56,810 nucleotides of DNA from Neptuniibacter pectenicola. Its GTDB lineage: Bacteria; Pseudomonadota; Gammaproteobacteria; Pseudomonadales; Balneatricaceae. The notes under the pieces were generated by a model. That model had not been told where the DNA came from, did not search any database, and saw only the letters and a program-made list of their open reading frames with translations. The DNA is taken from the NCBI RefSeq assembly GCF_001597735.1, contig NZ_LUTS01000014.1:1-56810 (forward strand), in the 5' to 3' direction. Made by a program: the position numbers and the translations under genes. Positions 2,900-19,116 of the stretch are shown one piece after another. Each line of letters opens with the position of its first letter. Positions within the stretch are counted from its first letter, which is position 1.

Positions 2900-2923
2900 A
2901 AAAAAAGCCCTCCATAGGAGGGC
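2900..2923 (-). terminator. Rho-independent terminator of the liv-etf operon
   Basis: On the minus strand GCCCTCC-TAT-GGAGGGC (2923-2907) is followed by seven T (2906-2900). It closes the ten-gene operon that ends with the ETF:ubiquinone oxidoreductase gene about 80 bp upstream. Confidence 0.9.
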
Positions 2924-2941
2924 AAGAAGGCACCGAGCCTT

Positions 2942-2958
2942 GAAACCATAATGGTTTC
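2942..2958. repeat. 17-bp palindrome behind the ETF-QO gene
   Basis: GAAACCAT-A-ATGGTTTC is a perfect inverted repeat in the 3' untranslated region of the operon. It may be a first hairpin ahead of the terminator at 2900-2923. Confidence 0.5.
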
Positions 2959-3001
2959 TGATGAATCCCGTTGAGCGAGTTCTGTTTACAGGGTTCGTGG
3001 G

Positions 3002-4630
3002 TTACATGTTGGGGTAATTAGGTCCACCGCCACCTTCAGGGGGCATCCATTGGATGTTCTGGCAGGGGTCTTTGATATCACAGGTTTTACAATGCAGGCA
3101 GTTTTGCGCATTGATTTGAAGTTTTTTGCCGGCGTCATCGTCGATCACTTCATAGACCCCCGCAGGGCAGTAACGTTGTGCGGGTTCGTCATACAGTGGG
3201 ATATTTACGGTGAGAGGGATCTCCTCTTTACTGAGCTGTAGGTGACAAGGTTGATCCTCTTCATGGTTGGTATTGGATAAAAAGACAGAGGAGAGTTTGT
3301 CAAAGGAGAGCTTGCCATCGGGTTTAGGGTAGGTGATGGGCTTACTTTCACTCGACCGGTGTAGGCTGGCATGATCCTCTTGGAGGTCGTGCAGTGTGAA
3401 AGGTAGTTTTCCGTTAAACAGGCCTTGATCTAACGTGTTAAACGCGCCCCCCAACCAGCGCCCCAATTTATGCAGTGCCGGGCCAAAGTTGCGGGCCTTA
3501 TAGAGTTCTCTGTATAGCCAGCTTTGGGTATAGCGTGCCTCAAATGTGCTGGCATCGGTTTCATTATTTTTGAGTGCGTGGTGAACCGCTTCTGCGGCGA
3601 TCATGCCTGACTTCATCGCTGTGTGAGCGCCTTTGATTCGGGAGAAGTCTAAGGTGCCTGCGTCACAACCAATCAGCATTCCGCCGGGGAAGTTCATCTT
3701 TGGCAGTGAGTTATAGCCCCCTTTAGTAATCGCTCTTGCGCCATAGGAGACGCGATTTCCCCCCTCTAAGTATTGGGCAATCAGCGGATGGTGTTTAAGT
3801 TGTTGGAACTCATCAAAGGGACTCAGCCAAGGGTTGCTGTAGTTTAGGTCAATAATGAGGCCGACAGCCACCTGATTGTTTTCTGCGTGGTAGAGGAAGA
3901 AACCACCGCTGGTATCTCCCTGAAGCGGCCAGCCTGAACCATGAATAACCAGTCCCGGTTGGTGTTTGGCGGGATCAATATCCCATAGCTCTTTGAGGCC
4001 AATGCCATAATGTTGTGGGTCTTTACCTTGATCAAGCTTGAACTGACGAATCAGCTCTTTACCTAAGTGTCCGCGGCAACCTTCGGCAAACAGGGTAAAG
4101 GGGGCGTGTAACTCTATGCCCGGCATGAAGTTATCTTTAGGCATATTATCGCGGCCAACCCCCATATCACCGGTCAAAATACCTTTTACCTGCATGTTTT
4201 CATCGTATAAAACATCGGCGGCACTAAAGCTTGGAAATATCTCTACGCCTAATGCTTCGGCTTGTTCCCCTAACCAGCGTGTAAGGTTGGCAAGGCTGGC
4301 AATGTAGTTGCCTTGGTTGTGCATACTTTTGGGGGCCATCCAATGGGGAATTTTGATCGAAGATCGATTGTCTTTTAGGAGAACCACTTCATCCCGTTCG
4401 GTGGCGAGGGTTAGGGGGGCTCCTCTCTCTTTCCAGTCGGGGAAGAGTTCTGTTAAGGCTTTAGGGTCGATAACCGCACCGGACAGTATATGCGCGCCGA
4501 CTTCAGAGCCTTTTTCGACCACACAGATATTGAGTTCAGGGTCGAGTTGTTTCAGACGACAGGCACTGGCCAGCCCTGCGGGGCCGGCGCCTACAATTAA
4601 GACGTCAAACGTCATCACTTCGCGTTCCAT
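3002..4630 (-). CDS. Electron-transfer flavoprotein:ubiquinone oxidoreductase
   Basis: A 542-residue ETF-QO, the inner-membrane-associated flavo iron-sulfur enzyme that moves electrons from reduced ETF to ubiquinone. The FAD-binding GAGPAG motif is at residues 14-19. The C-terminal 4Fe-4S ligands are Cys 488, 511, 514 and 517 (CLHCKTC), spaced 23-3-3, close to the spacing in known ETF-QOs. The length is normal (about 550). The start at 4630 is preceded by AAGGAG and lies 2 bp behind the acyl-CoA dehydrogenase stop; the open frame continues upstream for 70 codons but overlaps that gene. It is last in the operon that also encodes both ETF subunits and the dehydrogenase, so the whole electron path is co-expressed. 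Confidence 0.95.
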   Translation of the reverse strand: MEREVMTFDVLIVGAGPAGLASACRLKQLDPELNICVVEKGSEVGAHILSGAVIDPKALTELFPDWKERGAPLTLATERDEVVLLKDNRSSIKIPHWMAPKSMHNQGNYIASLANLTRWLGEQAEALGVEIFPSFSAADVLYDENMQVKGILTGDMGVGRDNMPKDNFMPGIELHAPFTLFAEGCRGHLGKELIRQFKLDQGKDPQHYGIGLKELWDIDPAKHQPGLVIHGSGWPLQGDTSGGFFLYHAENNQVAVGLIIDLNYSNPWLSPFDEFQQLKHHPLIAQYLEGGNRVSYGARAITKGGYNSLPKMNFPGGMLIGCDAGTLDFSRIKGAHTAMKSGMIAAEAVHHALKNNETDASTFEARYTQSWLYRELYKARNFGPALHKLGRWLGGAFNTLDQGLFNGKLPFTLHDLQEDHASLHRSSESKPITYPKPDGKLSFDKLSSVFLSNTNHEEDQPCHLQLSKEEIPLTVNIPLYDEPAQRYCPAGVYEVIDDDAGKKLQINAQNCLHCKTCDIKDPCQNIQWMPPEGGGGPNYPNM

Positions 4631-4632
4631 CA

Positions 4633-6414
4633 CTAGGCTCCTTGCATCTGTTCTGTTGTTAATGCAAAGGTACTTGAGAGACCGGTGAGTACGGTGTCCG
4701 CATGTTGGCTGACGCGGGGTAGGAAGTACTCGGCATAAAAGCAGGCGGTCGCTATTTTGCCTTGCAAGAAGGCGTCGCCGTAAGGGTTGTCTTGGGTTGT
4801 GAGTTGCGACGCTAATAATGCACTTTGTGCTAATAACCAACCACCGGTTAGGTAGCCCATCATCATGAGGTTATCAAAGCTCACATTCCCTAAGGTGTGT
4901 GGCGTGCTTGCGCTGTTTTCTAAAATCCACTCACCGGCTGCGGTTGCATGGGTTAGGGCGGTTTTTAGCTTGCTCTGTAGTAGGGCGAGTTGTGGCGAGT
5001 AGGAAGCGGACAGTTGTGTGAGCGTGTCGTTTATATCGGCGTGCAGTGCTTTAAGGGCTGCGCCTTTATCATAAACAGTTTTACGGCCAATCAGGTCAAA
5101 GGCCTGAATGCCGGTGGTCCCTTCATAGATAGGGAGTATGCGTGCATCACGGTAGTGCTGCGCTGCGCCGGTTTCTTCAATAAAGCCCATACCGCCGAGG
5201 ACTTGGATATTTAATGAGGTGAGCTCTTGGGCTAGCTCGGTCATCCAACCTTTAACAATAGGTGTGTATAAATCGACACGGGCGTGGGCGGCTGGATCAC
5301 CCTGATGGGCGTGGTCAATATCGGCTGCTGCGCGGTAAGCAAGGGCGCGCATCGCTTCGTTGCCTGCTTTCATTGCCATTAACATGCGGCGCACATCGGG
5401 GTGTTCGATAATGGCGATTTTACTGCCATCTTTGCGGCTGCCTTGGGTGCGTTCTTGGCTGTACTCTAGGGCCTGTTGGTAGGCGCGTTCGGAGATTGAT
5501 AAACCTTGTAAGCCTACCGCTTGTCTGGCGTGGTTCATCATGGTGAACATATAGCTTAGGCCTTTGTTCTCTTCGCCGACGAGGTAGCCAATCGCTCCGT
5601 CGTTATCACCAAAGCTCATGACGCAGGTGGGGCTGCCATGAATCCCCATTTTGTGTTCTAAAGAGATACAGCTCACGTCGTTAAGTTCAGCGGGTTGGCC
5701 CTGATCGTCTAATAGGTATTTAGGTACGATGAAAAGAGAGATCCCTTTTACGCCGGCGGGTGCATCGGGTAGGCGAGCAAGTACCAGATGGACAATATTG
5801 CTTGTCATCTGATGATCACCCCAAGTGATAAAGATCTTCTGTCCGTTAATTTTATAGTGATCGCCTGCTGGGGTGGCTTTAGCGGCAACGGCGGCGAGGT
5901 CGGAGCCGGCATTAGGCTCGGTCAAGTTCATGGTGCCGGTCCACTCACCGCTAATTAGAGGTGGAAGATATTGAGCTTTAAGTTCATCACTCCCGTGTGC
6001 AATGAGTGCTTCTACTGCGCCTTGGCTGAGCATAGGGCAGAGCGCAAACGACATGTTTGATGAGTGCCAAAGCTCATTAACGGCGGTACCGATGACATTA
6101 GGCAAGTTCTGCCCGCCAAAGGCTTCGGGGCCGGTGAGGGTGGCCCAGCCGTTTTCTACAAACTGCTGATAAGCATCGGCAAAGCCAGCGGTTTCTTGCA
6201 CTTGGCCATCGGCTACGGTTGCGCCTTTTTCATCACCCACACGGTTGAGCGGTGCAAGGACATCGGAGGCGAGCTTGCCTGCTTCCTCAATAATCACGGT
6301 GGCGAGTTCGGTGTTCACTTCATCTAATTGAAGTGTTTCACATAATTGATCAAGACCAACCAGTTGATCCAATACAAAACTGGCGTCTTTTACAGGGGGG
6401 GTGTAAGTGCTCAT
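4633..6414 (-). CDS. Acyl-CoA dehydrogenase, large (DmdC-like, extra C-terminal domain)
   Basis: 593 residues. It oxidises an acyl-CoA to the enoyl-CoA, passing electrons to ETF. The order is that of the 590-600 residue subfamily: N-terminal extension, the flavin/substrate motif MNLTEPNAGSDLAAV, the helical domain with PIYEGTTGIQ (probable catalytic base Glu431), then an extra C-terminal helical domain. This subfamily includes DmdC (3-methylmercaptopropionyl-CoA dehydrogenase) and several FadE-type enzymes, so the true substrate cannot be read from sequence. ATG 6414 is chosen because GAGG lies just upstream; the frame runs 25 codons further without such a site. A terminator-like hairpin precedes it. 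It is followed after 2 bp by ETF-QO. Confidence 0.92.
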   Translation of the reverse strand: MSTYTPPVKDASFVLDQLVGLDQLCETLQLDEVNTELATVIIEEAGKLASDVLAPLNRVGDEKGATVADGQVQETAGFADAYQQFVENGWATLTGPEAFGGQNLPNVIGTAVNELWHSSNMSFALCPMLSQGAVEALIAHGSDELKAQYLPPLISGEWTGTMNLTEPNAGSDLAAVAAKATPAGDHYKINGQKIFITWGDHQMTSNIVHLVLARLPDAPAGVKGISLFIVPKYLLDDQGQPAELNDVSCISLEHKMGIHGSPTCVMSFGDNDGAIGYLVGEENKGLSYMFTMMNHARQAVGLQGLSISERAYQQALEYSQERTQGSRKDGSKIAIIEHPDVRRMLMAMKAGNEAMRALAYRAAADIDHAHQGDPAAHARVDLYTPIVKGWMTELAQELTSLNIQVLGGMGFIEETGAAQHYRDARILPIYEGTTGIQAFDLIGRKTVYDKGAALKALHADINDTLTQLSASYSPQLALLQSKLKTALTHATAAGEWILENSASTPHTLGNVSFDNLMMMGYLTGGWLLAQSALLASQLTTQDNPYGDAFLQGKIATACFYAEYFLPRVSQHADTVLTGLSSTFALTTEQMQGA

Positions 6415-6437
6415 AAGGGTCCTCATTTTAAAAAGAA

Positions 6438-6473
6438 GGCGCGGACTGAAAAACGTTCTACGTAGTCCGAGCC
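6438..6473 (-). terminator. Intercistronic hairpin with T-rich tail, possible attenuator
   Basis: In transcript direction GGCTCGGACT (6473-6464) pairs with AGTCCGCGCC (6447-6438), with one mismatch and a 16-base loop. It is followed by TTCTTTTT, just ahead of the acyl-CoA dehydrogenase ribosome binding site. This could partly terminate transcription or stabilise the upstream etf mRNA. Confidence 0.6.
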
Positions 6474-6510
6474 TTGTAAGGTCAAGCAACGCTACTCACG
6501 GAATAACGGG

Positions 6511-7437
6511 TTAAAGTTTTTGCTCGAGTTCTGGTACTGCGTCAAAGAGGTCGGCGACTAAACCGTAGTCTGCTACGGAGAAAATAGGCGCTTCTTCATC
6601 TTTGTTGATGGCAACGATGATTTTTGAATCTTTCATCCCCGCAAGGTGCTGGATGGCACCTGAGATCCCGACGCCAATGTAAAGGTCAGGGGCGACAATT
6701 TTTCCCGTTTGTCCGATCTGTATGTCATTAGAGACAAAACCGGCATCGACGGCGGCACGTGATGCACCGACGGCCCCCCCTAATTTGTCGGCAACCTGTT
6801 CAAGTAGGGAGAAGTTTTCGCTATTGCCCATACCGCGCCCCCCGGCAATCACCACTTTAGCGGCGGTTAGTTCGGGGCGATCGGATTGCGCTATCTCTTC
6901 TGATACGAAGCTGGATAGGGTGTTTTCGATCTGTAGTTCAACCGCTTCAATCGGTGCTGAGTTATCGGTCGCAGCGGGCTCAAATGCGGTGCTACGCACC
7001 GTAATCACTTTAACTGCGTCCAGGGATTGTAAGGTTGCGATCGCACCCCCTGCATAGATCGGGCGCTGGAACCTATCCGCACTTTCAACTGCGGTAATAT
7101 CGGAGATCTGTCCTACATCCAGTAGGGCGGCCACTCTTGGTAGAATATTTTTACCATTGCTGGTGGCTGGCGCTAGGATATGGCTGTAACCCTCGCTGAG
7201 CTCGATGATGAGTTGGGCCATATTTTCTGCAAGCTGGTGGGTGTAAACCGGGTTGTCGGCTAAAAGGACTTTATTGATACCGCTAATCTGGGCGGCTTCG
7301 TCGGCCACCGATTGGCAGTCACAGCCGGCAACGAGCAGGTGGAGTTCCTGACCCATTTGTGTGGCTGCGGTTACGGTGTTAAGTGTGGCACCTTTTAGGG
7401 TGCTGTTGTCATGTTCTGCAATAATTAGAATAGCCAT
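6511..7437 (-). CDS. etfA: Electron transfer flavoprotein alpha subunit
   Basis: 308 residues, normal length for EtfA (FixB). The C-terminal FAD domain is clear: [42 protein letters not shown] and [10 protein letters not shown] are all signature segments. With EtfB it forms the soluble heterodimer that accepts electrons from acyl-CoA dehydrogenases and delivers them to ETF-QO. AAGGGG sits 6-7 bp upstream of the ATG. It begins 11 bp behind etfB. It is a housekeeping-type ETF rather than the nitrogen-fixation type, judged by the fatty-acid context. Confidence 0.95.
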
Positions 7438-7448
7438 TTAATCACCCC

Positions 7449-8198
7449 TTAAATTACGTTGGCTTGGTTTTTAAGTTTCTCAACCAGTTCATCAACACTG
7501 TTGACTAAAATGCCAGCGCTGCGCTCAACCGGTGGTGTTACTTTGATTAACGTGCTGTGTGTTTTAAGTTCAACGCCTAAGGTTTCAGGTGTTGTTACGG
7601 TGAGTGGTTTGCGCTTTGCCTTCATAATATTGGGGAGTGAGGCATAGCGAGGTTCGTTAAGACGAAGATCAGCAGTAATAACGGCCGGTAGGCTGAGCGA
7701 TAAGGTTTGTGAGCCACCATCAATCTCGCGGGCGACCTGAACTTTACCGTCTTTTAGTGTGAGCTCTGATGCAAACGTGGCTTGGGGCATACCCAATAGT
7801 GCCGATAGCATCTGCCCCGTTTGGTTGTTATCCGAGTCGATCGCTTGTTTTCCTAATAGTACTAAGCCCGGTTCTTCGTTTTTAACGACTTGGGCGAGTA
7901 ATTTAGCAACGTTGAGTGACTCGGGAATATCATCCGTTTCAATCTGAATGCCGCGATCTGCGCCTAAGGCTAAGGCGGTTCGGATCTGCTCTTGGCAGGC
8001 TTTAGGGCCAACCGAGACGACAATGACCTCGTCGGCACTGCCGGCTTCTTTTAAGCGAATCGCTTCCTCGACGGCAATTTCACAGAATGGATTGATCGCC
8101 ATTTTTGTATTGTTGAGATCAACATCTGAGTTGTCTGCCTTAACTCTTACTTTTGCGTTGTAATCAATAACACGTTTTACAGCGACTAATATCTTCAT
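7449..8198 (-). CDS. etfB: Electron transfer flavoprotein beta subunit
   Basis: 249 residues. The N-terminal [20 protein letters not shown] and the segments [16 protein letters not shown] and [17 protein letters not shown] are the EtfB (FixA) signatures that build the AMP site and the partner-binding face. AGAGGT lies 7 bp before the ATG. It comes 63 bp after the acyl-CoA ligase gene and just before etfA on the same strand. It is cytoplasmic and the partner of the EtfA encoded next. Confidence 0.95.
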
Positions 8199-8261
8199 TT
8201 CGGTACCTCTATCTGTCCCGGGGGTTGTGTAATCCTCCCCAAGGTTGTTGTAATCGTTGTG

Positions 8262-9917
8262 TTAGCCTTGCTGATCGTCTGCGCTATTTGCGCGGTCACG
8301 GAGCAAAAATTTCTGTATTTTGCCGGTCGATGTTTTAGGTAATGGGCCAAATACAATCTCTTTAGGGGTTTTAAAGTGGGCCATATGTTCGCGGCAGAAC
8401 TCGATGATTTCCTGCTTAGTGACTTCACGGTCTAGGTCTTTTAAGGCAACGAATGCGCAGGGGGTTTCACCCCATTTATCGTTGTTTTTGGCTACGACCG
8501 CCGCTTCCTGAATCATTGGGTGGCGATAAAGCACATCTTCAATCTCTATGCTTGAGATATTCTCACCGCCTGAAATGATGATATCTTTGGAGCGGTCTTT
8601 GATCTCCACGTAACCATCGGCATGCCATACCGCTAGGTCGCCGGAATGTAGCCAGCCGCCCTCAAATGCCGCCTTGGTTGTGGTGGGGTTTTTAAGGTAG
8701 CCTTTCATCACCAAGTTGCCGCGCATAAATATTTCGCCCATGGTTTCGCCGTCTTGTGGAACGGGTTCCATTGTGATCGGATCGGCAACCATCAAACCGT
8801 CGAGCATCGGTGCGCGTACGCCTTGACGTGATTTTAAGCGTGCCTTCTCCTCTGGCGTTTTTTCATCCCACTCCTCATGCCATGCGCAGACAACCGAAGG
8901 GCCGTATGTTTCAGTGAGGCCATAAACATGGGTCACGTTAAAGCCTAAGTTTTCCATGCCCGCAATGACTGAAGCGGGTGGCGCAGCGCCAGCGGTCATC
9001 ACATTTACGCTGTGTTCGATACCCGCTTTGAGTGTGTCATCGGCAGAGTTGAGCATATTTAAAACGATCGGCGCGCCGCAGAAATAACCTACTTTTTCCT
9101 GTTTTATTAAGTTGAAAATATGGTCAGCACGGACATGGCGTAAACACACATTGACGCCCGCCATCGCGGCTACGGTCCAAGGGAAGCACCAGCCGTTGCA
9201 ATGGAACATTGGCAATGTCCACAGGTATACGGGGTGCTGTCCCATCCCCCATGAAATCGCATTACTGATGGCGTTTAGGTAAGCGCCACGGTGGTGGTAG
9301 ACCACACCTTTGGGGTCCCCGGTGGTGCCTGATGTATAGTTGAGTGTGATGGCGTTCCACTCATCTTGAACGTCGAAGGGGGTAAAGTTTTCATCCCCTT
9401 GCTTTAGAAACGCGTCATAGGTTAATTCACCAATGAGTTCCCCTTCCTCCCAATAGGGATCATCAATGTCGATGACCAGCGGTTTCTGGTCGAGGTGTGT
9501 CAGTGCCTCTTTGACCACATGGCTAAACTCTTTATCGGTGATCAGCACTTTGCTTTCGGCATGTTGCAAAATAAAGGCGACAGCTTCGGCATCCAGTCGG
9601 ATATTGATGGAGTTCAGTACGGCGCCACACATAGGGACGGCGAAATGCGCCTCAAAATGTTCGGGCAGGTTCGGGGCTAAAATAGATACGGCTTCCCCCG
9701 GTTGTACCCCCTGTGCTTGAAGAGCGCTGGCAAGCTGTTTACAACGGGTGTACGTTTCTGCCCAGGTGTAGCGCGTGTTGCCATGAACGCTTGCCGTTCG
9801 TGTCGGGTATACGCTAGCGGCCCGTTGGATAAATGTAATAGGCGACAGGGCGGCGTAGTTAGCTTGGTTTTTATCTAAGTTCGTTTCAAAAGCGGAATGT
9901 TTTTCGTTAGTTTTCAC
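8262..9917 (-). CDS. AMP-forming acyl-CoA synthetase (acid:CoA ligase)
   Basis: About 551 residues of the adenylate-forming (ANL) superfamily. The P-loop YTSGTTGDPKGV is at about 198-209 in the longest frame, followed by VYGLTETYGP (A5), GWLHSGDLAVWHADGY (A7), KDIIISGGENIS (hinge, A8) and the C-terminal PKTSTGKIQKF with the catalytic Lys. It turns a carboxylic acid, ATP and CoA into acyl-CoA. The subfamily is the medium-chain/aryl-type FadD-like group, and the substrate is unknown. I place the start at GTG 9917 because GGAG lies 6 bp upstream; an in-frame GTG at 9929 has no such site. Its place between the transporter and the etf genes suggests it activates the imported acid. Confidence 0.92.
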   Translation of the reverse strand: MKTNEKHSAFETNLDKNQANYAALSPITFIQRAASVYPTRTASVHGNTRYTWAETYTRCKQLASALQAQGVQPGEAVSILAPNLPEHFEAHFAVPMCGAVLNSINIRLDAEAVAFILQHAESKVLITDKEFSHVVKEALTHLDQKPLVIDIDDPYWEEGELIGELTYDAFLKQGDENFTPFDVQDEWNAITLNYTSGTTGDPKGVVYHHRGAYLNAISNAISWGMGQHPVYLWTLPMFHCNGWCFPWTVAAMAGVNVCLRHVRADHIFNLIKQEKVGYFCGAPIVLNMLNSADDTLKAGIEHSVNVMTAGAAPPASVIAGMENLGFNVTHVYGLTETYGPSVVCAWHEEWDEKTPEEKARLKSRQGVRAPMLDGLMVADPITMEPVPQDGETMGEIFMRGNLVMKGYLKNPTTTKAAFEGGWLHSGDLAVWHADGYVEIKDRSKDIIISGGENISSIEIEDVLYRHPMIQEAAVVAKNNDKWGETPCAFVALKDLDREVTKQEIIEFCREHMAHFKTPKEIVFGPLPKTSTGKIQKFLLRDRANSADDQQG

Positions 9918-9963
9918 GGTGCTCTCCACGTTTTTTATCTCAGTAGCTTGCGGTGCCAGTACG

Positions 9964-10887
9964 CTAAAAGTTGTTGCGCTTAAACTTCATTAATTGACCG
10001 ACAATGCCGCTACGGAAGCTCAGTACACAGATGACGAATACTGCACCCATGATGATATGGATGTAGTTACCCATCTCGCCACCGGACAGATAGTTCTGCA
10101 TAGTGACGATAAAGCCGGCGCCTAATAAGGGGCCGAAGATCGTGCCGACTCCGCCAACTAAGGTCATTAAGATGACTTCGCCAGACATGTGCCAATGCAC
10201 ATCGGTAAGTGACGCCAATTCGAAGACCAGTGTTTTAGTTGATCCGGCAAGGGCCGCCAGCGCAGCAGAGATCACAAAGGCTAACCATTTGTATTGGTTT
10301 ACGTCATAACCTAGAGAGGTGGCGCGATCTTCGTTTTCTCGAATGGCTTTAAGGACTTGGCCGAATGGGGAGTGAACAGTACGGTTGATTAACCAGTAGC
10401 CTGCGACAAAGATAGTGAGTACGAAGTAATACATCACCATATTGTTGGATAGATCAATCAAACCAAATAACGCACCACGGGGTACGCCTTGCAAACCATC
10501 TTCACCGTTGGTGAAGGGGGCTTGTAGATAGAAGAAAAAGACCAGCTGAGCGAGGGCTAAGGTAACCATCGCGAAGTAGATACCTTCGCGTTTTACCGCT
10601 AACTTCCCAAAGATTGCACCGAGTAAGCCCCCAGCAAGGGTGCCTAATATGATGGCAATTTCAGGGGTTAACCCGCTGTTGATCATAAGGTAGCCGGTGA
10701 CATAACCGCCGGTACCTAAGAAGGCTGCATGCCCAAATGATAAAAGGCCGGCAAACCCAAGTAATAGATTAAAGGCGCAAGCAAATAGGGCAAAGCACAG
10801 CACTTTTGCTAAAAAAACAGGGTAAAGCACAGTGGGGGCTAGTAGAGCTAACGCAAGCAGAAATAGGTTGAGCTTCATATTATTCAT
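9964..10887 (-). CDS. livM: Branched-chain-type ABC transporter permease LivM
   Basis: 307 residues with eight or more hydrophobic segments and the LivM core: NLLLGFAGLLSFGHAAFLG, then AIRENEDRATSLGYDVNQYK (the loop that docks on the ATPase) and VILMTLVGGVGTIFGPLLGA. ATG 10887 is preferred because AGGA lies 7 bp upstream; in-frame TTG 10893 and ATG 10878 are alternatives. It forms the membrane pore with LivH, encoded 9 bp upstream. Family members move branched-chain amino acids, amides, urea or aromatic and aliphatic acids. Here the neighbours point to an acid that becomes a CoA ester. Confidence 0.92.
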   Translation of the reverse strand: MNNMKLNLFLLALALLAPTVLYPVFLAKVLCFALFACAFNLLLGFAGLLSFGHAAFLGTGGYVTGYLMINSGLTPEIAIILGTLAGGLLGAIFGKLAVKREGIYFAMVTLALAQLVFFFYLQAPFTNGEDGLQGVPRGALFGLIDLSNNMVMYYFVLTIFVAGYWLINRTVHSPFGQVLKAIRENEDRATSLGYDVNQYKWLAFVISAALAALAGSTKTLVFELASLTDVHWHMSGEVILMTLVGGVGTIFGPLLGAGFIVTMQNYLSGGEMGNYIHIIMGAVFVICVLSFRSGIVGQLMKFKRNNF

Positions 10888-10896
10888 AATCAATTC

Positions 10897-11784
10897 CTAA
10901 GCTTCTTTACCAAATAGGCCCGCAGGCTTTAGTAATAGAACAATGACCATCACTAAAAAAATTACGGTATTAGAGGCTTCTGGATAGAAGTATTTAGTGA
11001 GCCCTTCAACAACTCCCATACCTAAACCAGTAATAATGGCTCCCCCGATAGATCCCATGCCGCCAATAACGACGATGGCAAAAACGGCGATGAGAATATT
11101 AGATCCCATATCCGGTGATACGGAGTAGATAGGTGCCGCCATCACACCCGCAAATCCAGCTAAGGCCACGCCAAATCCAAAGGTGAGGGTGACGATCAAC
11201 GGAACATTAATACCGAAGGCTTGCATCAGTTGTGGGTTTTCTGTGCCGGCACGGAGGTAGGCACCGAGCTTTGTTTTTTCGATCATCCACCATGTACCCG
11301 CACACACAAACACCGACACAATAATGATCCATGCGCGATAATTAGGGAGGTACATAAAGGGCAGTTTAGTGCCGCCCTTTAAGGCCTCAGGTACAGGGTA
11401 AGATAATCCCGAAGAACCAAAAGCATGGGTGAACACACCTTGGATGATGAGGGCGAGACCAAAGGTTAGCAGTAAGCTGTAAAGGTTATCTTCATTGGCG
11501 ATGGGGCGGATTAGAAAGCGTTCCATCAAAATGCCAATGAGGCCAACAGTTAACGGGACAAGGATCAGTGCAAACCAGTAGTTTATGCCCATATATTTCA
11601 AGGCAAGGAGCGCAATGAATGCGCCTAACATATACATCGCGCCTTGGGCGAAGTTGATGATTTTTAAGAGCCCAAAAATGATGGCCAAGCCGAGACTTAG
11701 CAGGGCGTAAAAAGAGCCGTTAATTAGCCCAACCAAAAGTTGGCCAAATAGGGCAAATAGATTGATATCAAAGAGTGTAGCCAT
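10897..11784 (-). CDS. livH: Branched-chain-type ABC transporter permease LivH
   Basis: 295 residues, hydrophobic throughout, with LVGLINGSFYALLSLGLAIIFGL..NFAQGAMYMLGAF near the start and GGMGSIGGAIITGLGMGVVEG near the end, both typical of LivH. It is a membrane-embedded partner of LivM. The family length is 290-310. It is preceded in the operon by the binding-protein gene and an intercistronic hairpin that may lower its expression relative to the binding protein. Confidence 0.92.
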   Translation of the reverse strand: MATLFDINLFALFGQLLVGLINGSFYALLSLGLAIIFGLLKIINFAQGAMYMLGAFIALLALKYMGINYWFALILVPLTVGLIGILMERFLIRPIANEDNLYSLLLTFGLALIIQGVFTHAFGSSGLSYPVPEALKGGTKLPFMYLPNYRAWIIIVSVFVCAGTWWMIEKTKLGAYLRAGTENPQLMQAFGINVPLIVTLTFGFGVALAGFAGVMAAPIYSVSPDMGSNILIAVFAIVVIGGMGSIGGAIITGLGMGVVEGLTKYFYPEASNTVIFLVMVIVLLLKPAGLFGKEA

Positions 11785-11825
11785 AACAGAACATCTACCT
11801 TTCTGAGCCGTACGGAGCAGGAAAG

Positions 11826-11845
11826 GCGGCCTTTTTTAGGGCCGC
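11826..11845 (-). repeat. Intercistronic hairpin between binding protein and livH
   Basis: GCGGCC (11826-11831) and GGCCGC (11840-11845) form a perfect 6-bp GC stem with an eight-base loop. Such hairpins behind binding-protein genes often keep that part of the message more abundant than the permease part. Confidence 0.5.
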
Positions 11846-11852
11846 TAATCGA

Positions 11853-13061
11853 TCAGGAAAAATTACATTGAGGCAGCATAGGGCTGTATGCCTCATCTCC
11901 TGGAATGACTTTAATAATTTTGTAAATGTCATTCTTATCTTTGCGCTCGTCTTTCTTTTTAATCTCGACATACAGCATGTCATGCACCATTCGACCATCA
12001 GGGCGGAGGGTGGCGTTACGGGCGAAGAAGTCATTAGGCTTCGTCGCTTTCATTGTTTTCATCACGGTATCGGTGTCATCGGTGCCGGCGGCTTTAACCG
12101 CGTTGAGGTAATGCATAGTGACCGAGTAGACGCCCGCGTGGATCATGCTTGGAATCGCCCCGTGACGTTGTTCAAACCGCTTGCTCCACTGGCGTGTTTC
12201 ATCATCCATGTCCCAGTAAAACCCTGAGGTTAGACGCATACCGCCGGCGGTTGCTGGGTCCATCGCTTGAGCATTAGGTGTAAAGACTAATAACCCCGCC
12301 ACATCCATCTGTTCTGTTAATCCAAATTCAGCCGCGGCTTTTAGGGCGTTAACGGTGTCGTTACCGGCATTTGCTAAGGCAACTACATCTGCGCCAGACG
12401 CTTGGGCTTGCAGAATGTAAGAGGAGAAGTCGGTTGTGCCGAGTGGCGCACGCACATTACCGAGTACTTCGCCGCCATTCTCATTAATGACTTTACTGGC
12501 CATGCCTTCTAGCGCATGACCAAAGCTGTAATCTGCGGTAATAAAGAACCATTTCTTTTTACCCGCCTGCACCATCGGCTTAACTGTACCGTTCGCTAGC
12601 GCGACGACGTTGTATGTCCAATGCACGTTGTAAGGACTACAGGTTTTAGTGGTGAAGGTATTTGAGGCAGAGCCTGAAATTAGAGTGATATTTTTACTGT
12701 CGGCGTTAACTTTAGATACCGCACCAGAAACGGCAGAGGAGACCAATCCACCAATGGCGTCGACGCCTTCATCTTCGACCCACTTGCGGGCAATGGCTGA
12801 GGCAACATCCGGCTTGAGTTGGGAATCGGCACTGACCATCTCAATGGGTTTGCCAAGTACGTTGCCGCCAAAATCTTCAATGGCCATCTCTGCAGCAATG
12901 ACGCAGCCTGAACCACAAATATCTGCGTAGGTACCGCCCATATCGGCCAAAATACCCAGCTTAACCTGACCATCCGTGGTTGCTTGAGCACTACAGGCGA
13001 TCGTTGCTGCGATTGCGCCTGAGACAACAGCCGATAAAAGGGTGCGATTGGTTTTTTTCAT
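11853..13061 (-). CDS. Periplasmic binding protein of a Liv-type ABC transporter
   Basis: 402 residues. It has an N-terminal signal peptide (KKTNR, hydrophobic core, cleavage likely after ACSAQA), then a type I periplasmic-binding fold: VKLGILADMGGTYADICG, VSADSQLKPDVASAIARKWV, VDAIGGLVSSAVSGAV and WFFITADYSFGHALEG are recognisable. Proteins of this branch bind small carboxylates, amides or branched-chain amino acids. The ligand here is unknown and is the key to the operon's substrate. CGGAG lies 7 bp before the ATG. It is encoded between the ATPase genes (upstream) and the permease genes (downstream). Confidence 0.92.
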   Translation of the reverse strand: MKKTNRTLLSAVVSGAIAATIACSAQATTDGQVKLGILADMGGTYADICGSGCVIAAEMAIEDFGGNVLGKPIEMVSADSQLKPDVASAIARKWVEDEGVDAIGGLVSSAVSGAVSKVNADSKNITLISGSASNTFTTKTCSPYNVHWTYNVVALANGTVKPMVQAGKKKWFFITADYSFGHALEGMASKVINENGGEVLGNVRAPLGTTDFSSYILQAQASGADVVALANAGNDTVNALKAAAEFGLTEQMDVAGLLVFTPNAQAMDPATAGGMRLTSGFYWDMDDETRQWSKRFEQRHGAIPSMIHAGVYSVTMHYLNAVKAAGTDDTDTVMKTMKATKPNDFFARNATLRPDGRMVHDMLYVEIKKKDERKDKNDIYKIIKVIPGDEAYSPMLPQCNFS

Positions 13062-13128
13062 TTTCTGACTCCGGTTTTGTTTGTTTTTATTGTCTGTTCC
13101 GTGAAACAGTTATTGATATAACCAAGGG

Positions 13129-13890
13129 CTATACGCCCAAATAGGTATTTAGCAGCTCAGTTTTGGTTGCTAATTCATTGGCGTGTACTTCTTCCACAAT
13201 GTGGCCGTGTTCCATGACGTAATGACGGTCTGCAATGGGGGCTGCAAAGCGGAAGTTTTGTTCAACCAATAAAATAGTCAGACCGCGCTCCTTGAGCTGA
13301 CTAAGAACCTCGCCCAGTTTCTGCACAATGACGGGGGCGAGGCCCTCAGTTATCTCATCCAGGAGTAGGATGTTGGCGCCGGTACGTAAAATGCGGGCAA
13401 GGGCTAGCATCTGTTGTTCACCACCGGAAAGGCGTGTGCCTTGGCTGGTGCGGCGCTCATAAAGGTTTGGGAACATGTCGTATATCTCTTCAAGGCTAAC
13501 CCCGTCAGAACGCACGTTCGGTGGTAACATTAAATTTTCTTCTACATTTAGACTGGAAAATATGCCGCGCTCTTCGGGGCAGAAGCCGAGTCCTAGGTGA
13601 GCGATTTTATGGGCGGGCATCTGGATCGTTTCATGGCCGTTGATCACGATCTGTCCGCTGCGTTCACCCACCATATTCATAATTGCTTTTAGTGTGGTCG
13701 ACCGACCTGAACCGTTACGGCCGAGTAGGGTGACAAGCTCCCCTTGGTTAACGGTCATATCGATCCCATGCAAAATGTGGGATTCACCATAAAAGGCATG
13801 CAGGTTATTAATTCGAATTTTTTCTCGATGGCTGCTGATGTAGGTTTTATTTGCCAGCGCTTCGTTAGAGTGGGTTTGAGGTGAGTTCAT
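13129..13890 (-). CDS. livF: Liv-type ABC transporter ATPase LivF, Walker A Lys replaced by Arg
   Basis: 253 residues. It has NLHAFYGESHILHGIDM, Walker A GRNGSGRST, signature LSGGEQQMLALARIL, Walker B ILLLDEITEGLAP and switch His in LLVEQN(F) context. The usual Walker A Lys is Arg63 here (codon CGG on the minus strand). The partner LivG keeps the normal GPNGAGKTT. The N-terminus has about 20 extra residues before the ABC domain. It overlaps livG by 4 bp (ATGA), so the two ATPases are translationally coupled. It drives import with LivG through LivH and LivM. Confidence 0.92.
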   Translation of the reverse strand: MNSPQTHSNEALANKTYISSHREKIRINNLHAFYGESHILHGIDMTVNQGELVTLLGRNGSGRSTTLKAIMNMVGERSGQIVINGHETIQMPAHKIAHLGLGFCPEERGIFSSLNVEENLMLPPNVRSDGVSLEEIYDMFPNLYERRTSQGTRLSGGEQQMLALARILRTGANILLLDEITEGLAPVIVQKLGEVLSQLKERGLTILLVEQNFRFAAPIADRHYVMEHGHIVEEVHANELATKTELLNTYLGV

Positions 13891-14687
13891 GATGCGGCCT
13901 CCGCTGTTGCTTCGGCATTTACATCATCGGCTTCGGTTCCCATATAGGCTTCGCGTACACGTGGGTCGGCAGAAACGCTCGCATAATCACCCTCGGTGAG
14001 AATGGCGCCCCGTTGCAGTACGGTAATTCGATCAGCCAGCTTAGAGACCACATGAAGGTTATGCTCCACCATTAAAATGGTGCGCTCTTGAGAGACTTTT
14101 TTAATGAGATCGGATACCAGCCCTACGTCTTCATGGCCCATGCCTTGGGTGGGTTCATCAAGCAGCATTAATTCGGGTTCAAGCGCGAGGGTTGTCGCTA
14201 TTTCTAAGGCTCGCTTACGGCCATATGACAGGTCGACCGTGATGCTGTTGGCAAAGGTTTCAAGCCCTACGGACTCCAGTAGGGCCATCGCTTTATCATT
14301 TAGGCGGTTAAGTATTCGTTCGGAGCGCCAGAAATGGAAGCTGTTACCCTCTTTACGTTGTAACGCGATCCGTACGTTTTCTAACACACTCAAGTGGGGA
14401 AACACCGCAGATATCTGGAAGGAGCGAATCACTCCTTTACGGGCAATCGCCGCGGGCTTTAACGGGGTAATGTCATCCCCGTTGAAAAGAATGCTGCCTG
14501 AGGTGGGCTGGAGAAATTTTGTGAGTAAGTTAAACACAGTGGTTTTTCCTGCACCATTAGGGCCGATAAGGGCATGAATGTCGCCCCGTTGGATCTTTAA
14601 ATTGACATCATCGACGGCGGTAAACCCTTTGAAGGCTTTGGTCAGATTACGGGTTTCAAGGATGAAATCCTGCGTGGGCTGGGTCAT
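13887..14687 (-). CDS. livG: Liv-type ABC transporter ATPase LivG
   Basis: 266 residues, first gene of the operon. It has Walker A GPNGAGKTT, Q-loop region ISAVFPHLSVLENV, the signature LSYGRKRALEIA, Walker B LMLLDEPTQGMGHED and the switch His in MVEHN(L). The C-terminal tail DPRVREAYMGTE is typical of LivG. A 200-bp divergent promoter region separates it from the sensor kinase gene. The Shine-Dalgarno is weak. Confidence 0.93.
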   Translation of the reverse strand: MTQPTQDFILETRNLTKAFKGFTAVDDVNLKIQRGDIHALIGPNGAGKTTVFNLLTKFLQPTSGSILFNGDDITPLKPAAIARKGVIRSFQISAVFPHLSVLENVRIALQRKEGNSFHFWRSERILNRLNDKAMALLESVGLETFANSITVDLSYGRKRALEIATTLALEPELMLLDEPTQGMGHEDVGLVSDLIKKVSQERTILMVEHNLHVVSKLADRITVLQRGAILTEGDYASVSADPRVREAYMGTEADDVNAEATAEAAS

Positions 14688-14887
14688 CGGTTGCTACTCT
14701 GTTCTGGCCGAATTCGCTGTACGGTCTTGCTCAGGATTCAGCTGTTATTTTTATTAAAATCAGAGTAGGGGCTAAACTTTGCATAACTATTTTGAGAATC
14801 TAACCAAATGTAACAAGTGAATTGTCCGTGATAACTTTGTGTTACATTCATCGGGCCATGGGACAAAACGGAGAATAATAATTTCTG
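14688..14887. promoter_or_regulatory. Divergent control region of the liv-etf operon and the sensor kinase
   Basis: The 200-bp region separates livG (minus) from the kinase gene (plus). It holds the element TAACCAAATGTAAC (14801-14814), two TAAC half-sites 10 bp apart as expected for a PhoB/OmpR-type regulator. It also holds the inverted repeat ATGTAACA (14808-14815) and TGTTACAT (14840-14847), so a partial second copy faces the kinase. A TACTCT hexamer on the minus strand (14767-14762) could be the operon -10 box. Binding by the neighbouring response regulator is an inference. Confidence 0.6.
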
Positions 14888-17785
14888 ATGCAACGTCACG
14901 CTTCTATTACTATCCGCTTGTTCCTTATGTTGCTTATTTTAATTGGCAGCATTTTTGGTTCGATCTACTGGCTAACCGTTCCCCTCATAAAAGAAAACGT
15001 ATTTGGTTTGGAGTTACATTCAAACCGACAAGTGCTGAATATTGTTTATGATTTGGCCAACCGTATGTATGCCAGTACCGAAACCTACATTGATAAAACC
15101 CTGAGTGCGCATGAGCAACGGCTTAAATCGGTTTTGGATCTTGCCGAAAAACATATTGAGGTGAGTCTAAGGGATGGGCGTGAAGCCGGCTTAAATGATG
15201 AGCGTATTTGGCAGAAGATCTTTGACGATTTACGGGCGTTTGATTTTGGTAACGGTGATTATATTTGGATCGCTGATCACAATGCGCATCTACTGTCACA
15301 TCCTGATGGCGAATTTAACCAACGAGATATGTCGAACTTTCTTGGGCCGGACGGTAAGCAAATCATTCCCACGATCTTAGAAAAAATTCGCAAAGATAAG
15401 CAGGGTTTTTATAAATATAAATGGCAGCGGTTAGGCAGTGATCAGGTGATTGATAAATACTCCTATGTGAAAGACTTCACAGAGTGGGGCTTTATTATGG
15501 GGGCCGGTGTCTACTTAGATGATATCCATCGTGAGGTTGAGCTGCAGAAGCAACGTGCTATTTTGGATATAAATAAAGCGTTAAAAAACATTAAAATAGC
15601 CAGTAATGGTTATCTTTATGTATTTGATTCTAATGGTAATATGCTGTTTCACCCCAACCAAAATATTCATGGAACCAACTTTACTACCCAGCTTAATCCC
15701 GTTACAAAAAATCCAATCTATCTGGACCTAATGGAGGTTGCGGATACCGGTAAAGAGCTGTATTACAAATGGGACCGCCCTGATGATCAGGGTAACTATA
15801 TCTATGAAAAACACTCGCTGGTGCGGCATCTGTCGGGCTTTGATTGGTATATCAGCTCCTCTGTTTATTTAGATGATTTAAAAGCCAGTTCAGTACAGCT
15901 TAGTCAGCGTATTTTAGCCATGGGCTTTTTTGCCTTTCTTGCTGCGATTGTGATCGCCTTCCTTTTTGCAGAATGGCTAACCTCACCCATTAAAAAGCTG
16001 TCTTCAACCGCGTATAAGATCAGTCGAGGAAACTATGCGGCTAAGACGGGGATTAATCGACACGATGAGTTGGGGCTTTTAGCTGAATCCTTTGATTATA
16101 TGGTCGATCGATTACGCGACAATATAAACACCCTTAATTCCCGGGTAAAAGCACGGACCAAAGAGCTGTCGGAATCTAACTACCAGTTGCGTGATGCTGT
16201 CCACTCAATGGAGTTAGCGCAAACGGAGCTGCGTGCTGTTGAAACCCGTCAGCGCTTAATTTTGAATGCGCTACCAGCACAAGTTGCCTATTTAGATAAA
16301 GAGCAGCGTTTCATTTTTGCTAACCGTGAATACCTCACGCTGTTTAATCAACGTGTGGACGAGATTGAAGGAAAAACCCTCCAAGAGGTGGTGGGCTATG
16401 AGATGTATCAAGCCATTAAACCACACATTATGGAGGCCCTTGAGGGGAAAACAGGGGTGTATGAATACCTGTTTCAGCAGGACGGTCGGGAGATGTTAAC
16501 CCGACGTACCGTATTGCCGTTTTATAATGAGCAGGCCGAGGTTGTTGGCTTCCTTAATCTTTCTATCGATATCACCCATGAACGGGAAACGGAAAAGCGG
16601 TTAGCTGAAGCCAGTAAAATGAAAACCGTGGGGCAGATGTCGGGTGGTTTGGCCCACGACTTTAATAACCTACTGACGATTATTTTGGGTAATTTGATTG
16701 AGCTGCAAAAGCATAAATCGGTACCGCCTGAATTACAGGACAATTTAAGCCCTGCTATCCGTGCTACGCGACGTGGTGCGGATATGACAAAGCGGTTATT
16801 AGCATTTTCGCGTCGGCAACCGCTATCACCTGCGCGGATACGGCTTGGGGCTTTGATTCATGATTTAGTGGATCTGCTTGCCGCGCCGTTGCCGGACAAT
16901 ATTAAACTACTGACTGAGATTAAGCAGGATACGCCTGATGTGTATGTTGATGCGGCTCAAATGGAAGATGCCTTGGTCAATCTAGTCTTGAATGCAGCGG
17001 ATGCGATGAGTCAGGGAGGGGAACTCTATTTGACCGTTGCGGGCACACAGAGCGGTGCAGCGGATATTGCCTGTGGTGGGTTTGATGAAACGATCACTGC
17101 GGGTGACTATGTTTTGATTAGTGTGATTGATCAGGGGGAGGGGTTTACCAGCAGAGCACTGAAAAAAGCGTATGAGCCCTTCTTTACAACAAAAGGCACC
17201 GGGGCGGGTTCAGGATTAGGCTTGAGTATGGTTTACGGCTTTGTGAAGCAGTCTAAAGGCTATTTGCGTATTCGTAATCGGGACGAGATCCAAGAGGGTG
17301 AGTCCGGGGCACAGATTGATCTGTTACTACCGGCAGCCTTAGGTGATGAGATTGAATGTGGTGTTGAGCAAGTGGGTGTTGCTGCGTCACCTTTTTCAAT
17401 GGCCCAGAGCAATGCATTGGTGCTGTTGGTGGAAGATAATCAAGATGTTCGCCAGTTAGTCCGTAACCAGTTAATCGGAATGGGATTTGCGGTGATTGAG
17501 GCGAATAGTGGTGATGAAGCAGTATCACTTTTGGCCGGTTTAGAGGAGGTCAGTGGTGTTGTATCCGATGTGGTGATGCCTGGGCGTAAGAGTGGTTATG
17601 ATGTGGCGGCGATGGTTAAAAAACAACATCCCGCCGCGTTTGCTGTGCTGATGACCGGTTATACCGAAAATCCGCCAGAAACTGATTTTGAATTTAACTT
17701 GTTACAAAAACCCTTTGATGCGGATGCGTTAGCACAGGCGATCTCTCCAGAGTTGGTTGATAAGCGGTCTGAGGATGTTAAATGA
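14888..17785 (+). CDS. Hybrid sensor histidine kinase with tandem Cache domains
   Basis: 965 residues. Domains in order: membrane helix (about 10-31), two Cache_2-like sensor domains in the periplasm (motifs YIWIADHNAHLLSHP and YLYVFDSNGNMLFHP), second membrane helix (about 341-362), HAMP, coiled coil, PAS (about 455-575), HisKA with phospho-acceptor His590 (GGLAHDFNNLL), HATPase with NAADA and GSGLGLS, and a C-terminal receiver (about 842-955) with Asp894. Cache_2 sensors often bind small carboxylates. It lies divergent to the transport/oxidation operon and overlaps the response regulator gene by 4 bp, so it probably senses the operon's substrate outside the cell. GGAG is 14 bp from the ATG, which predicts weak translation. 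Confidence 0.93.
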   Translation: MQRHASITIRLFLMLLILIGSIFGSIYWLTVPLIKENVFGLELHSNRQVLNIVYDLANRMYASTETYIDKTLSAHEQRLKSVLDLAEKHIEVSLRDGREAGLNDERIWQKIFDDLRAFDFGNGDYIWIADHNAHLLSHPDGEFNQRDMSNFLGPDGKQIIPTILEKIRKDKQGFYKYKWQRLGSDQVIDKYSYVKDFTEWGFIMGAGVYLDDIHREVELQKQRAILDINKALKNIKIASNGYLYVFDSNGNMLFHPNQNIHGTNFTTQLNPVTKNPIYLDLMEVADTGKELYYKWDRPDDQGNYIYEKHSLVRHLSGFDWYISSSVYLDDLKASSVQLSQRILAMGFFAFLAAIVIAFLFAEWLTSPIKKLSSTAYKISRGNYAAKTGINRHDELGLLAESFDYMVDRLRDNINTLNSRVKARTKELSESNYQLRDAVHSMELAQTELRAVETRQRLILNALPAQVAYLDKEQRFIFANREYLTLFNQRVDEIEGKTLQEVVGYEMYQAIKPHIMEALEGKTGVYEYLFQQDGREMLTRRTVLPFYNEQAEVVGFLNLSIDITHERETEKRLAEASKMKTVGQMSGGLAHDFNNLLTIILGNLIELQKHKSVPPELQDNLSPAIRATRRGADMTKRLLAFSRRQPLSPARIRLGALIHDLVDLLAAPLPDNIKLLTEIKQDTPDVYVDAAQMEDALVNLVLNAADAMSQGGELYLTVAGTQSGAADIACGGFDETITAGDYVLISVIDQGEGFTSRALKKAYEPFFTTKGTGAGSGLGLSMVYGFVKQSKGYLRIRNRDEIQEGESGAQIDLLLPAALGDEIECGVEQVGVAASPFSMAQSNALVLLVEDNQDVRQLVRNQLIGMGFAVIEANSGDEAVSLLAGLEEVSGVVSDVVMPGRKSGYDVAAMVKKQHPAAFAVLMTGYTENPPETDFEFNLLQKPFDADALAQAISPELVDKRSEDVK

Positions 17786-18483
17786 ACGGCACTAGTCCAT
17801 TAATCTATGTGGTAGAGGATGAGGAAGATCTGGGTAAATTGATCTGCGCGTCCTTAAGCGATTATCGTTATCAAGTGCAGTATTGCGCCACGGGCAAGGC
17901 ATTATTCGCGGCATTGGATAATCAATCACCAGAGATCTGTATTGTTGATTTAAACCTGCCCGATATTGATGGGATGCAATTAGTTAAAGAGCTAGAGCAT
18001 CGCGCCATTGGTGTGATTATCGTGTCAGGCCGTGGAGGCTTAACCGACCGGGTTTTAGGGCTAGAGTTTGGTGCGGATGATTACATTACTAAGCCGTTTG
18101 AACCCCGTGAGTTGGTTGCCCGAGTTCAAAGTTTACATCGACGCTTGGAAAAACAGAAAAAGCAGTTGGAACAGGCACCGAAACAAGCGCTGTTTGCCAA
18201 TTGGTCATTTCAGCCTGAATCCCTTAGTTTAAGTCGGGAGGGGCAGAGTGAATCACTGAGTCGGGCCGAAGGTGACATGCTTTTAGCGTTGTTAACGCAC
18301 CCCTTTCAGATCTTATCAAGGGATCAACTGTTGGGTGAAAACTGTGTACCTTATGATCGCAGTATTGATGTCCGGATGTCTCGGTTACGAAAGAAAATTG
18401 AATCGGACCCGCAGCATCCTGAACTGATTAAAACGGTGTATGGGGCTGGTTATATGTTAACCACGGATGTTAAGTGGCGTTAA
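17782..18483 (+). CDS. PhoB/OmpR-type response regulator
   Basis: 233 residues. The receiver domain has the acidic pocket VEDEED near residue 10, phospho-acceptor Asp56 (IVDLNLPDIDG), Thr/Ser in IIVSGRG and Lys in ADDYITKPFEPREL. The C-terminal winged helix ends in the usual SIDVRMSRLRKKIE and IKTVYGAGYML. Its ATG overlaps the kinase stop by 4 bp, so the pair is co-translated. Because this class binds direct repeats with 10-11 bp period, the TAAC-N6-TAAC elements at 14801 and 19216 are candidate targets. Confidence 0.95.
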   Translation: MNGTSPLIYVVEDEEDLGKLICASLSDYRYQVQYCATGKALFAALDNQSPEICIVDLNLPDIDGMQLVKELEHRAIGVIIVSGRGGLTDRVLGLEFGADDYITKPFEPRELVARVQSLHRRLEKQKKQLEQAPKQALFANWSFQPESLSLSREGQSESLSRAEGDMLLALLTHPFQILSRDQLLGENCVPYDRSIDVRMSRLRKKIESDPQHPELIKTVYGAGYMLTTDVKWR

Positions 18484-18546: not shown

Positions 18547-19116
18547 TTAGCGCCCCATCGTATAAAATTCCACATTGGGCTGCATTGCACTGATCACGGC
18601 CATACGGTTTGAAAGTCCAAAAAACGCACACACACTGGAAATATCCCAAATATCCTCGTCCGTTAAGCCTTGCATGTAGAGCGCTTCATAATCCTGTTGG
18701 CAGATCTCTTCAGGGGCTCTGCATAGCTTTAAACTAAAATCGAGTATCGCTTTTTGTCGTTCGGTAATGGCTGCGTGCCGATGATTAGTACTGAGTTGAT
18801 CGGATAGCAGAGGATCTTTACTGACGATTCTGAGCACCGCACCGTGGGCGACAACACAATACTGACAGCCATTTGCTGCGCTAGTGGTGACGATAATCAT
18901 CTCTTTTTCTGCGAGGCTAAGGTTCGCTTCCCGCGTCATAATCGCTTGGTAGTAATCAAAAAAAGCACGAAATTCGTTTGGGCGGCGCGCGAGTGTTAAA
19001 AATACATGGGGAATAAAGCCTGTCTTTTCCTGTACCTCAATAATCATCGCCTGAATATCCTCAGGGAGCTCATTTAGGGTACTACAAGGGTAACGGCATA
19101 TAGCGGGATTTAGCAT
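18547..19116 (-). CDS. Peroxidase-related / carboxymuconolactone decarboxylase family (AhpD-like) protein
   Basis: 189 residues. The AhpD-type redox motif is NGCQYCVVAH, with a CxxC pair followed by His at +4. The surrounding helix and the segment GFIPHVFLTLARRPNEFRAF are typical of the uncharacterised peroxidase-related (TIGR01926) family. It is likely a cytoplasmic thiol-dependent peroxide-reducing or disulfide-handling enzyme. AAGGA precedes the ATG. Its promoter region carries the same 14-base element as the liv-etf operon at a similar distance (100 against 114 bp), so it may belong to the same regulon. Confidence 0.85.
   Translation of the reverse strand: MLNPAICRYPCSTLNELPEDIQAMIIEVQEKTGFIPHVFLTLARRPNEFRAFFDYYQAIMTREANLSLAEKEMIIVTTSAANGCQYCVVAHGAVLRIVSKDPLLSDQLSTNHRHAAITERQKAILDFSLKLCRAPEEICQQDYEALYMQGLTDEDIWDISSVCAFFGLSNRMAVISAMQPNVEFYTMGR

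Follow-up and report, generated by a model that had tools for sequence, protein, structure and literature searches.

The common view is that bacteria take up short-chain fatty acids by diffusion or with the help of simple permeases. In Escherichia coli, the two-component system AtoSC switches on the short-chain fatty acid operon atoDAEB, and a locus of probably similar function occurs in Neptuniibacter pectenicola on contig NZ_LUTS01000014.1 (56,810 nucleotides, the whole of which is called the window below). Ten genes on one strand, livGFKHM followed by those for an acid:coenzyme A (CoA) ligase, the two subunits of an electron transfer flavoprotein (ETF), an acyl-CoA dehydrogenase and an ETF-quinone oxidoreductase (ETF-QO), face the genes of a hybrid sensor kinase and a response regulator. 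Judging from sequence comparisons, this locus is probably (at roughly 55%) a sensed operon that takes up and oxidises short straight-chain fatty acids of about C4 to C6, its predicted ligand being butyrate-like.

Compared with AtoSC/atoDAEB, the locus has an ATP-binding cassette (ABC) importer in place of AtoE and the acid:CoA ligase in place of the CoA-transferase, no CoA-transferase being found among the ten operon genes; its regulator is of the OmpR type, whereas AtoC is of the NtrC type, and an acyl-CoA dehydrogenase, ETF and ETF-QO are included. Its action would resemble that of AtoSC/atoDAEB with different components, and it does not belong to that system. The Liv/HAAT importers, including the hydroxybenzoate binders of R. 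palustris, have their fold and gene set in common with the locus, in which, unlike in them, the importer is coupled to ligase, ETF and ETF-QO. The PscD-type sCache_2 carboxylate sensors (5g4y, 4k08) share pocket residues and fold with the operon kinase, which differs from PscD in carrying two modules in a hybrid kinase rather than one in a chemoreceptor, and in the replacement of a phenylalanine at the back wall. DmdB and DmdC belong to the same superfamilies as the ligase and the dehydrogenase of about 600 amino acids (aa), but the ligase fails a curated model of DmdB activity. All of the parts are of familiar kinds; their combination, which includes a putative ABC pump for a short fatty acid, seems to have been studied little, and literature searches, which covered open-access papers only, found no paper on this operon.

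The ten minus-strand genes run from 14687 to 3002 with intergenic gaps of -4 to 96 bp, and kinase and regulator (14888-18483, plus strand) diverge from livG; the unit and its divergent pair are confirmed in open reading frames (ORFs) and domains as the initial annotation had described them. The features are as follows.

13887..14687, minus strand: livG, ABC ATPase (ORF; same-place homologues 74-92% identical in many relatives; name from the sequence)
13129..13890, minus strand: livF, ABC ATPase (PF00005)
11853..13061, minus strand: livK, periplasmic binding protein (PF13458; nearest solved chains 3i09 and 3n0w)
10897..11784, minus strand: livH, permease (best NCBIfam match TIGR03409, below cut-off)
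9964..10893, minus strand: livM, permease (PF02653)
8262..9929, minus strand: acid:CoA ligase of the PRK08162 subfamily (PF00501/PF13193; NF006020; TSGTTG and TSTGK motifs)
7449..8198, minus strand: etfB (ETF domain match)
6511..7437, minus strand: etfA (PF01012 and PF00766)
4633..6414, minus strand: acyl-CoA dehydrogenase, ~600-aa type with C-terminal PF12806 (YEGT motif; clade of 19)
3002..4630, minus strand: ETF-QO (PF05187 and PF21162)
2907..2923, minus strand: terminator-like hairpin past the end of the unit (hairpin scan)
14797..14816, plus strand: conserved direct repeat AATCTAACCAAATGTAACAA, predicted response regulator site
14840..14848, plus strand: extended -10-like element TGTTACATT, predicted promoter of the kinase gene (from sequence)
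14888..17785, plus strand: hybrid sensor kinase with tandem Cache, HAMP, PAS, HisKA, HATPase and receiver domains (domain matches, predicted fold)
17782..18483, plus strand: OmpR-type response regulator (PF00072 and PF00486; Response_reg and Trans_reg_C)

Briefly, the tandem-Cache kinase would bind the acid in the periplasm and pass phosphate to the OmpR-type regulator, which may then bind the direct repeat in the livG-kinase intergenic region, switching on expression in both directions. The binding protein and the Liv-type importer would take up the acid at low concentration, the ligase would make the acyl-CoA and the dehydrogenase the enoyl-CoA, and the electrons of the latter step are predicted to reach ubiquinone by way of EtfBA and ETF-QO. 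The enoyl-CoA would be hydrated and cleaved by FadBA in the host genome (G000; 3.63 Mb, 203 contigs) and with the help of a co-encoded 3-hydroxybutyryl-CoA dehydrogenase and hydratase in relatives. The earlier view of a dedicated unit for uptake, activation, oxidation and electron transfer with its own sensor is supported; the assignment to straight-chain C4-C6 acids is made because of the partner enzymes in relatives and the lack of a leucine route in G000.

With regard to the missing steps of beta-oxidation, the queries used for enoyl-CoA hydratase, 3-hydroxybutyryl-CoA dehydrogenase and thiolase gave no match in the 56.8-kb window (tblastn, E<=1e-15), and the statement that the locus lacks hydratase and thiolase is right to that extent. 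The specialised substrate that had been deduced from this lack does not follow, since operons of the same acyl-CoA dehydrogenase clade carry 3-hydroxybutyryl-CoA dehydrogenase and hydratase, and G000 can use FadBA. In Marinomonas vulgaris (L087), livGFKHM is followed by genes for a 3-hydroxyacyl-CoA dehydrogenase, an enoyl-CoA hydratase, the ligase, EtfBA, the acyl-CoA dehydrogenase and ETF-QO; the same order without the importer runs up to a contig end in L178, and in L172-L174 the genes for 3-hydroxybutyryl-CoA dehydrogenase, hydratase, ligase and acyl-CoA dehydrogenase face the kinase gene. A hydroxybutyryl-CoA dehydrogenase of at least 50% identity occurs in 7 of the 33 tabulated stretches, together with the hydratase in five (L087, L172, L173, L174 and L178) and alone, at 54-55%, in L169 and L187. 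That of L174 passes the PRK05808 model (425.8; cut-off 408), and the best model of the two hydratases tested is that of short-chain-enoyl-CoA hydratase. A tree of 27 acyl-CoA dehydrogenases (29 loci were asked, two of which gave no sequence; long branches are flagged among the outer members) unites 19 operon enzymes in a single clade (support 100/100) that excludes the copies on contigs C2 and C193 of G000, and places L178 as sister to L039, whose operon includes the importer but no hydratase. Clusters of importer, etfBA and dehydrogenase genes were also found in Betaproteobacteria (L106, L113, L134 and L156); the more distant one of Limnohabitans (L134) comes with a kinase and regulator of its own, and it also encodes ETF-QO, a MaoC-type hydratase and a thiolase scoring above the cut-off of the BktB model (739.9; cut-off 725).

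The host genome has two sets of electron-transfer genes. Four ETF matches occur in G000, two in the window and two on C2, the latter in a row read as fadA-fadB-etfA-etfB, and of its two ETF-QO genes one is that of the window and the other, C2:95418, adjoins a ~600-aa acyl-CoA dehydrogenase gene; a third ~600-aa dehydrogenase is encoded on C193, near a FadD-like ligase (named by eye). Because a further etfBA, with fadBA, and a further ETF-QO lie on C2, the electron-transfer set of the window is additional to a general one. No good match was found in G000 for isovaleryl-CoA dehydrogenase (LiuA; the best matches, at 29-33%, are the ~600-aa enzymes) or for LiuB, a subunit of methylcrotonyl-CoA carboxylase (top score 21 bits). 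A hydroxybutyryl-CoA dehydrogenase homologue on C138 (42%) was set aside as looking unrelated, since it sits, as judged by eye, among genes for sugar nucleotides and surface polysaccharides.

The ligase passes the PRK08162 acyl-CoA synthetase model NF006020 (923 bits; cut-off 677) and fails the 3-(methylthio)propionyl-CoA ligase model, PRK07008 (321 bits; cut-off 822). It resembles the solved chains 6ihk and 6ijb, which we take to be DmdB. Among solved ~600-aa chains, the dehydrogenase scores 484 bits with 8png, 474 with 6ijc and 460 with 8pns; 6ijc is presumably DmdC, and 8png and 8pns are assumed here to be P. aeruginosa enzymes acting on longer chains. The name DmdC-like given to this enzyme holds only as far as membership of the ~600-aa acyl-CoA dehydrogenase family goes.

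The Cache region of the kinase (14978-15922) is related, by sequence and predicted fold, to PscD (5g4y) and Adeh_3718 (4k08). According to the PscD report (PMC5062169), propionate is held by Tyr90, His103, Tyr143 and Lys156, sandwiched by Trp92 and Trp145, and meets Phe126. All six equivalents of the pocket residues are kept in module 1 (Tyr125, Trp127, His138, Tyr177, Trp179 and Lys190) and five of six in module 2 (Tyr242, Tyr244, His255, Tyr293, Trp295 and Lys308), where the place of Trp92 is taken by Tyr or Phe, and this pattern holds in all 21 aligned kinases (21/21). At the place of Phe126, module 1 has Ile160, and 21/21 kinases have Ile, Leu, Met or Val. Three genomes gave 37 sCache_2 matches; of the 30 used for a control, 8 come from these kinases and 22 do not. 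Among the latter, the full six-residue pocket occurs in one, and Ile, Leu, Met or Val stands at the Phe126 place in 15. The predicted carboxylate pocket is distinctive, and the change at the Phe126 wall is not. It was also reported, in PMC12415202, that the pocket residues are conserved in sCache_2 domains binding short carboxylic acids and that the histidine is a leucine in L-lactate sensors; the operon kinases have histidine at this position. Another large ORF of the host genome (G000:C127:322955-323722; 951 aa) has two sCache_2 matches, the first with Leu and the second with Thr in place of the PscD histidine.

The Liv/HAAT importer gene set is complete in the unit (binding protein, two permeases and two ATPases, LivG and LivH being named by homology and sequence), and 34 bp separate livM from the ligase gene. 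A weak profile alignment of LivK with E. coli LivJ (probability 95.9, 19% identity, E 5.6e-9) puts at the position of Glu226, which we take to be the residue that binds the alpha-ammonium group, an alanine that is invariant in 12 of 12 aligned binding proteins, and this replacement disfavours, with moderate weight, an amino acid ligand. The predicted fold of LivK (mean predicted local distance difference test, pLDDT, 82.1) is closest to 3i09 and 3n0w, the titles of which name no ligand; amino acid, urea, amide and aromatic-acid binders match it alike, and the fold does not discriminate among such ligands. Hydroxybenzoates are bound by Liv-type proteins with this fold (R. palustris), and carboxylic acids lacking an amino group are known as its ligands. 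A LivK homologue at E<=1e-90 occurs in 10 of 369 genomes of the class, G000 included, and etf genes were called near a related binding protein in 6 of 80 named loci (L087, L104, L106, L113, L134 and L156) by a gene caller that misses genes. The bundling of etf genes with an importer, which the initial annotation called unusual, is a minority arrangement but a recurrent one. Other copies of the importer family diverge from liuR and liu genes (e.g., L042, L066 and L088), and G009 and G010 carry both kinds of locus, the operon and a liu-linked importer. In L066 (G020; 5658-12136), livGFKHM has etfBA behind livM and is divergent from liu genes, near apparent branched-chain keto acid dehydrogenase genes. 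In Pelagibius marinus (L133; 8029-9180), a livG-like ORF of 383 aa begins with a stretch that looks PAS-type by eye and resembles that of the neighbouring kinase; it is possibly a sensor-ATPase fusion or a start-site artefact.

A comparison of gene order across relatives, which had been suggested as a check, bears the unit out. Of 11 genus genomes, 7 have livGFKHM-ligase-etfBA-dehydrogenase in this order on a single stretch (G000, G001, G003, G004, G007, G009 and G010); it is split by contig ends in G008, livK is absent from G006, G002 has kinase, regulator, ligase, etfBA and dehydrogenase with no importer there, and in G005 kinase and regulator are joined by importer and ligase only. The ETF-QO gene adjoins the others in 6 of the 11 (G000, G001, G003, G004, G007 and G008), and the gene order recurs, altered, in other families, more than chance would give. 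The genes for kinase, regulator, ligase and dehydrogenase form a group with no importer beside it in L171, L172, L173, L174 and L177, although some of these genomes have an importer elsewhere; since these five relatives keep the four genes in this way, the importer is an add-on outside the conserved core. In L051, L055 and L056, a tandem-Cache kinase and regulator diverge from a solitary livK, behind which comes the gene of a different AMP-forming ligase; no permease genes were called beside them. These three loci lend some support to a bolder reading, considered unlikely, in which short-chain fatty acids have a high-affinity ABC importer of their own and its binding protein hands the acid to the tandem-Cache kinase as well. 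Products of adjacent binding-protein and kinase genes need not interact, non-interacting pairs being described for P. aeruginosa in PMC11113362.

Between livG and the kinase gene sits the 20-bp direct repeat, the 17-base core of which is found exactly upstream of 16 of the 26 kinase genes examined and, in four more, with 1 (L177), 2 (L050), 3 (L181) or 4 (L064) mismatches. Since the repeat is present even at the importer-less loci L171-L174, it belongs to the kinase-regulator pair, and we infer that it is the binding site of the response regulator. A search of the G000 genome at up to two mismatches gave one site, the operon's own, and no further regulator site that would point to a wider regulon.

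Several observations weigh against this interpretation. As reported in PMC5062169, butyrate and hexanoate are not bound by PscD, and Ile at the Phe126 place, considered as a possible sign of a longer acid, was dropped as such, because residues of this kind are common in unrelated sCache_2 domains (15/22) and carry little information on chain length. The hydroxybutyryl-CoA dehydrogenases of L087 (391.7 bits) and L169 (347.6) fall below the PRK05808 cut-off of 408, as do both tested hydratases below that of the short-chain-enoyl-CoA hydratase model (298.4 and 302 bits; cut-off 394). The Limnohabitans kinase matches the operon kinase only from residue 409 on, so that the sensor of L134 differs. 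The repeat core is not found within four mismatches in 6 of the 26 upstream regions (L051, L055, L183, L134, L133 and L120), and a reversed-pattern control likewise gave one match in the G000 genome. Close relatives of the importer adjoin leucine-degradation genes, which would fit a branched substrate.

Branched short-chain acids (isovalerate, isobutyrate or 2-methylbutyrate), which were also among the substrates first suggested, are favoured by importer relatives with binding proteins of 67-77% identity that diverge from liuR-liuABCD (e.g., L042 and L088), LiuR and LiuB clusters each occurring in 21 of 117 stretches, some of them overlapping. A leucine-type acid is unlikely in G000, where neither liuA nor liuB has a good match (the valine and isoleucine routes lay outside that search), and the operon relatives carry 3-hydroxybutyryl-CoA dehydrogenase and hydratase instead; branched acids as a whole are held to be unlikely. 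Medium-chain or aryl-chain acids (hexanoate to decanoate, phenylpropionate) would suit the broad PRK08162 ligase subfamily, a dehydrogenase of the ~600-aa family with 8png and 8pns, presumably of longer-chain role, as its nearest solved chains, and the binding of hydroxybenzoates by Liv-type proteins of the same fold. They are nevertheless unlikely, given that the partner enzymes match C4-type families and BktB best and that G000 has two other ~600-aa dehydrogenases, one adjoining a FadD-like ligase.

For 3-methylthiopropionate, in the demethylation branch of dimethylsulfoniopropionate, the marine origin of the relatives and the resemblance of ligase and dehydrogenase to 6ihk/6ijb and 6ijc (DmdB and DmdC, as we assume) can be cited. 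The methylthio substrate raised in the initial annotation is disfavoured by the ligase, which reaches 321 of the 822 bits required by the 3-(methylthio)propionyl-CoA ligase model, and the 3-hydroxybutyryl-CoA dehydrogenase of relatives has no place in that route; this substrate is most improbable. It is also very unlikely that the importer is an ordinary one for branched-chain amino acids that merely precedes a separate fatty-acid unit. Its permeases are of the Liv type, and importer and enzyme block are apart in some relatives (L171-L174 and L177), but the livM-ligase spacing is tight, the importer-ligase junction is conserved in 7/11 genus genomes, no acidic residue stands at the LivJ Glu226 place in the weak alignment (19% identity), and importer-ligase or importer-etf neighbours occur in Betaproteobacteria too.

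If the reading as an operon for short straight-chain fatty acids is true, it would mean active scavenging of these acids at low marine concentrations, and would supply a likely ligand class for widespread Liv-type binding proteins (nearest solved 3i09 and 3n0w) and for the tandem-Cache kinase family; the variation of the unit among relatives is instructive as well.

The acyl-CoA dehydrogenase most likely starts at 6414 (MSTYTPP, matching relatives) and ETF-QO most likely at 4630 (MEREVM), in both cases rather than at a longer TTG start. The hairpin at 2923-2907 (minus strand) directly follows the unit and has a T run; it is this place and T run that support it, the scan having given 21 terminator-like sites in total against 20.3 expected, which is no excess. 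Adjoining the regulator gene, a gene of the peroxidase-related CMD family (window 18547-19116; TIGR01926, 190 bits, cut-off 81.8) is kept in G001, G003 and G004, and downstream of the operon a short radical-SAM-like ORF, named by eye (window 786-1463), is kept in G003 and G004.

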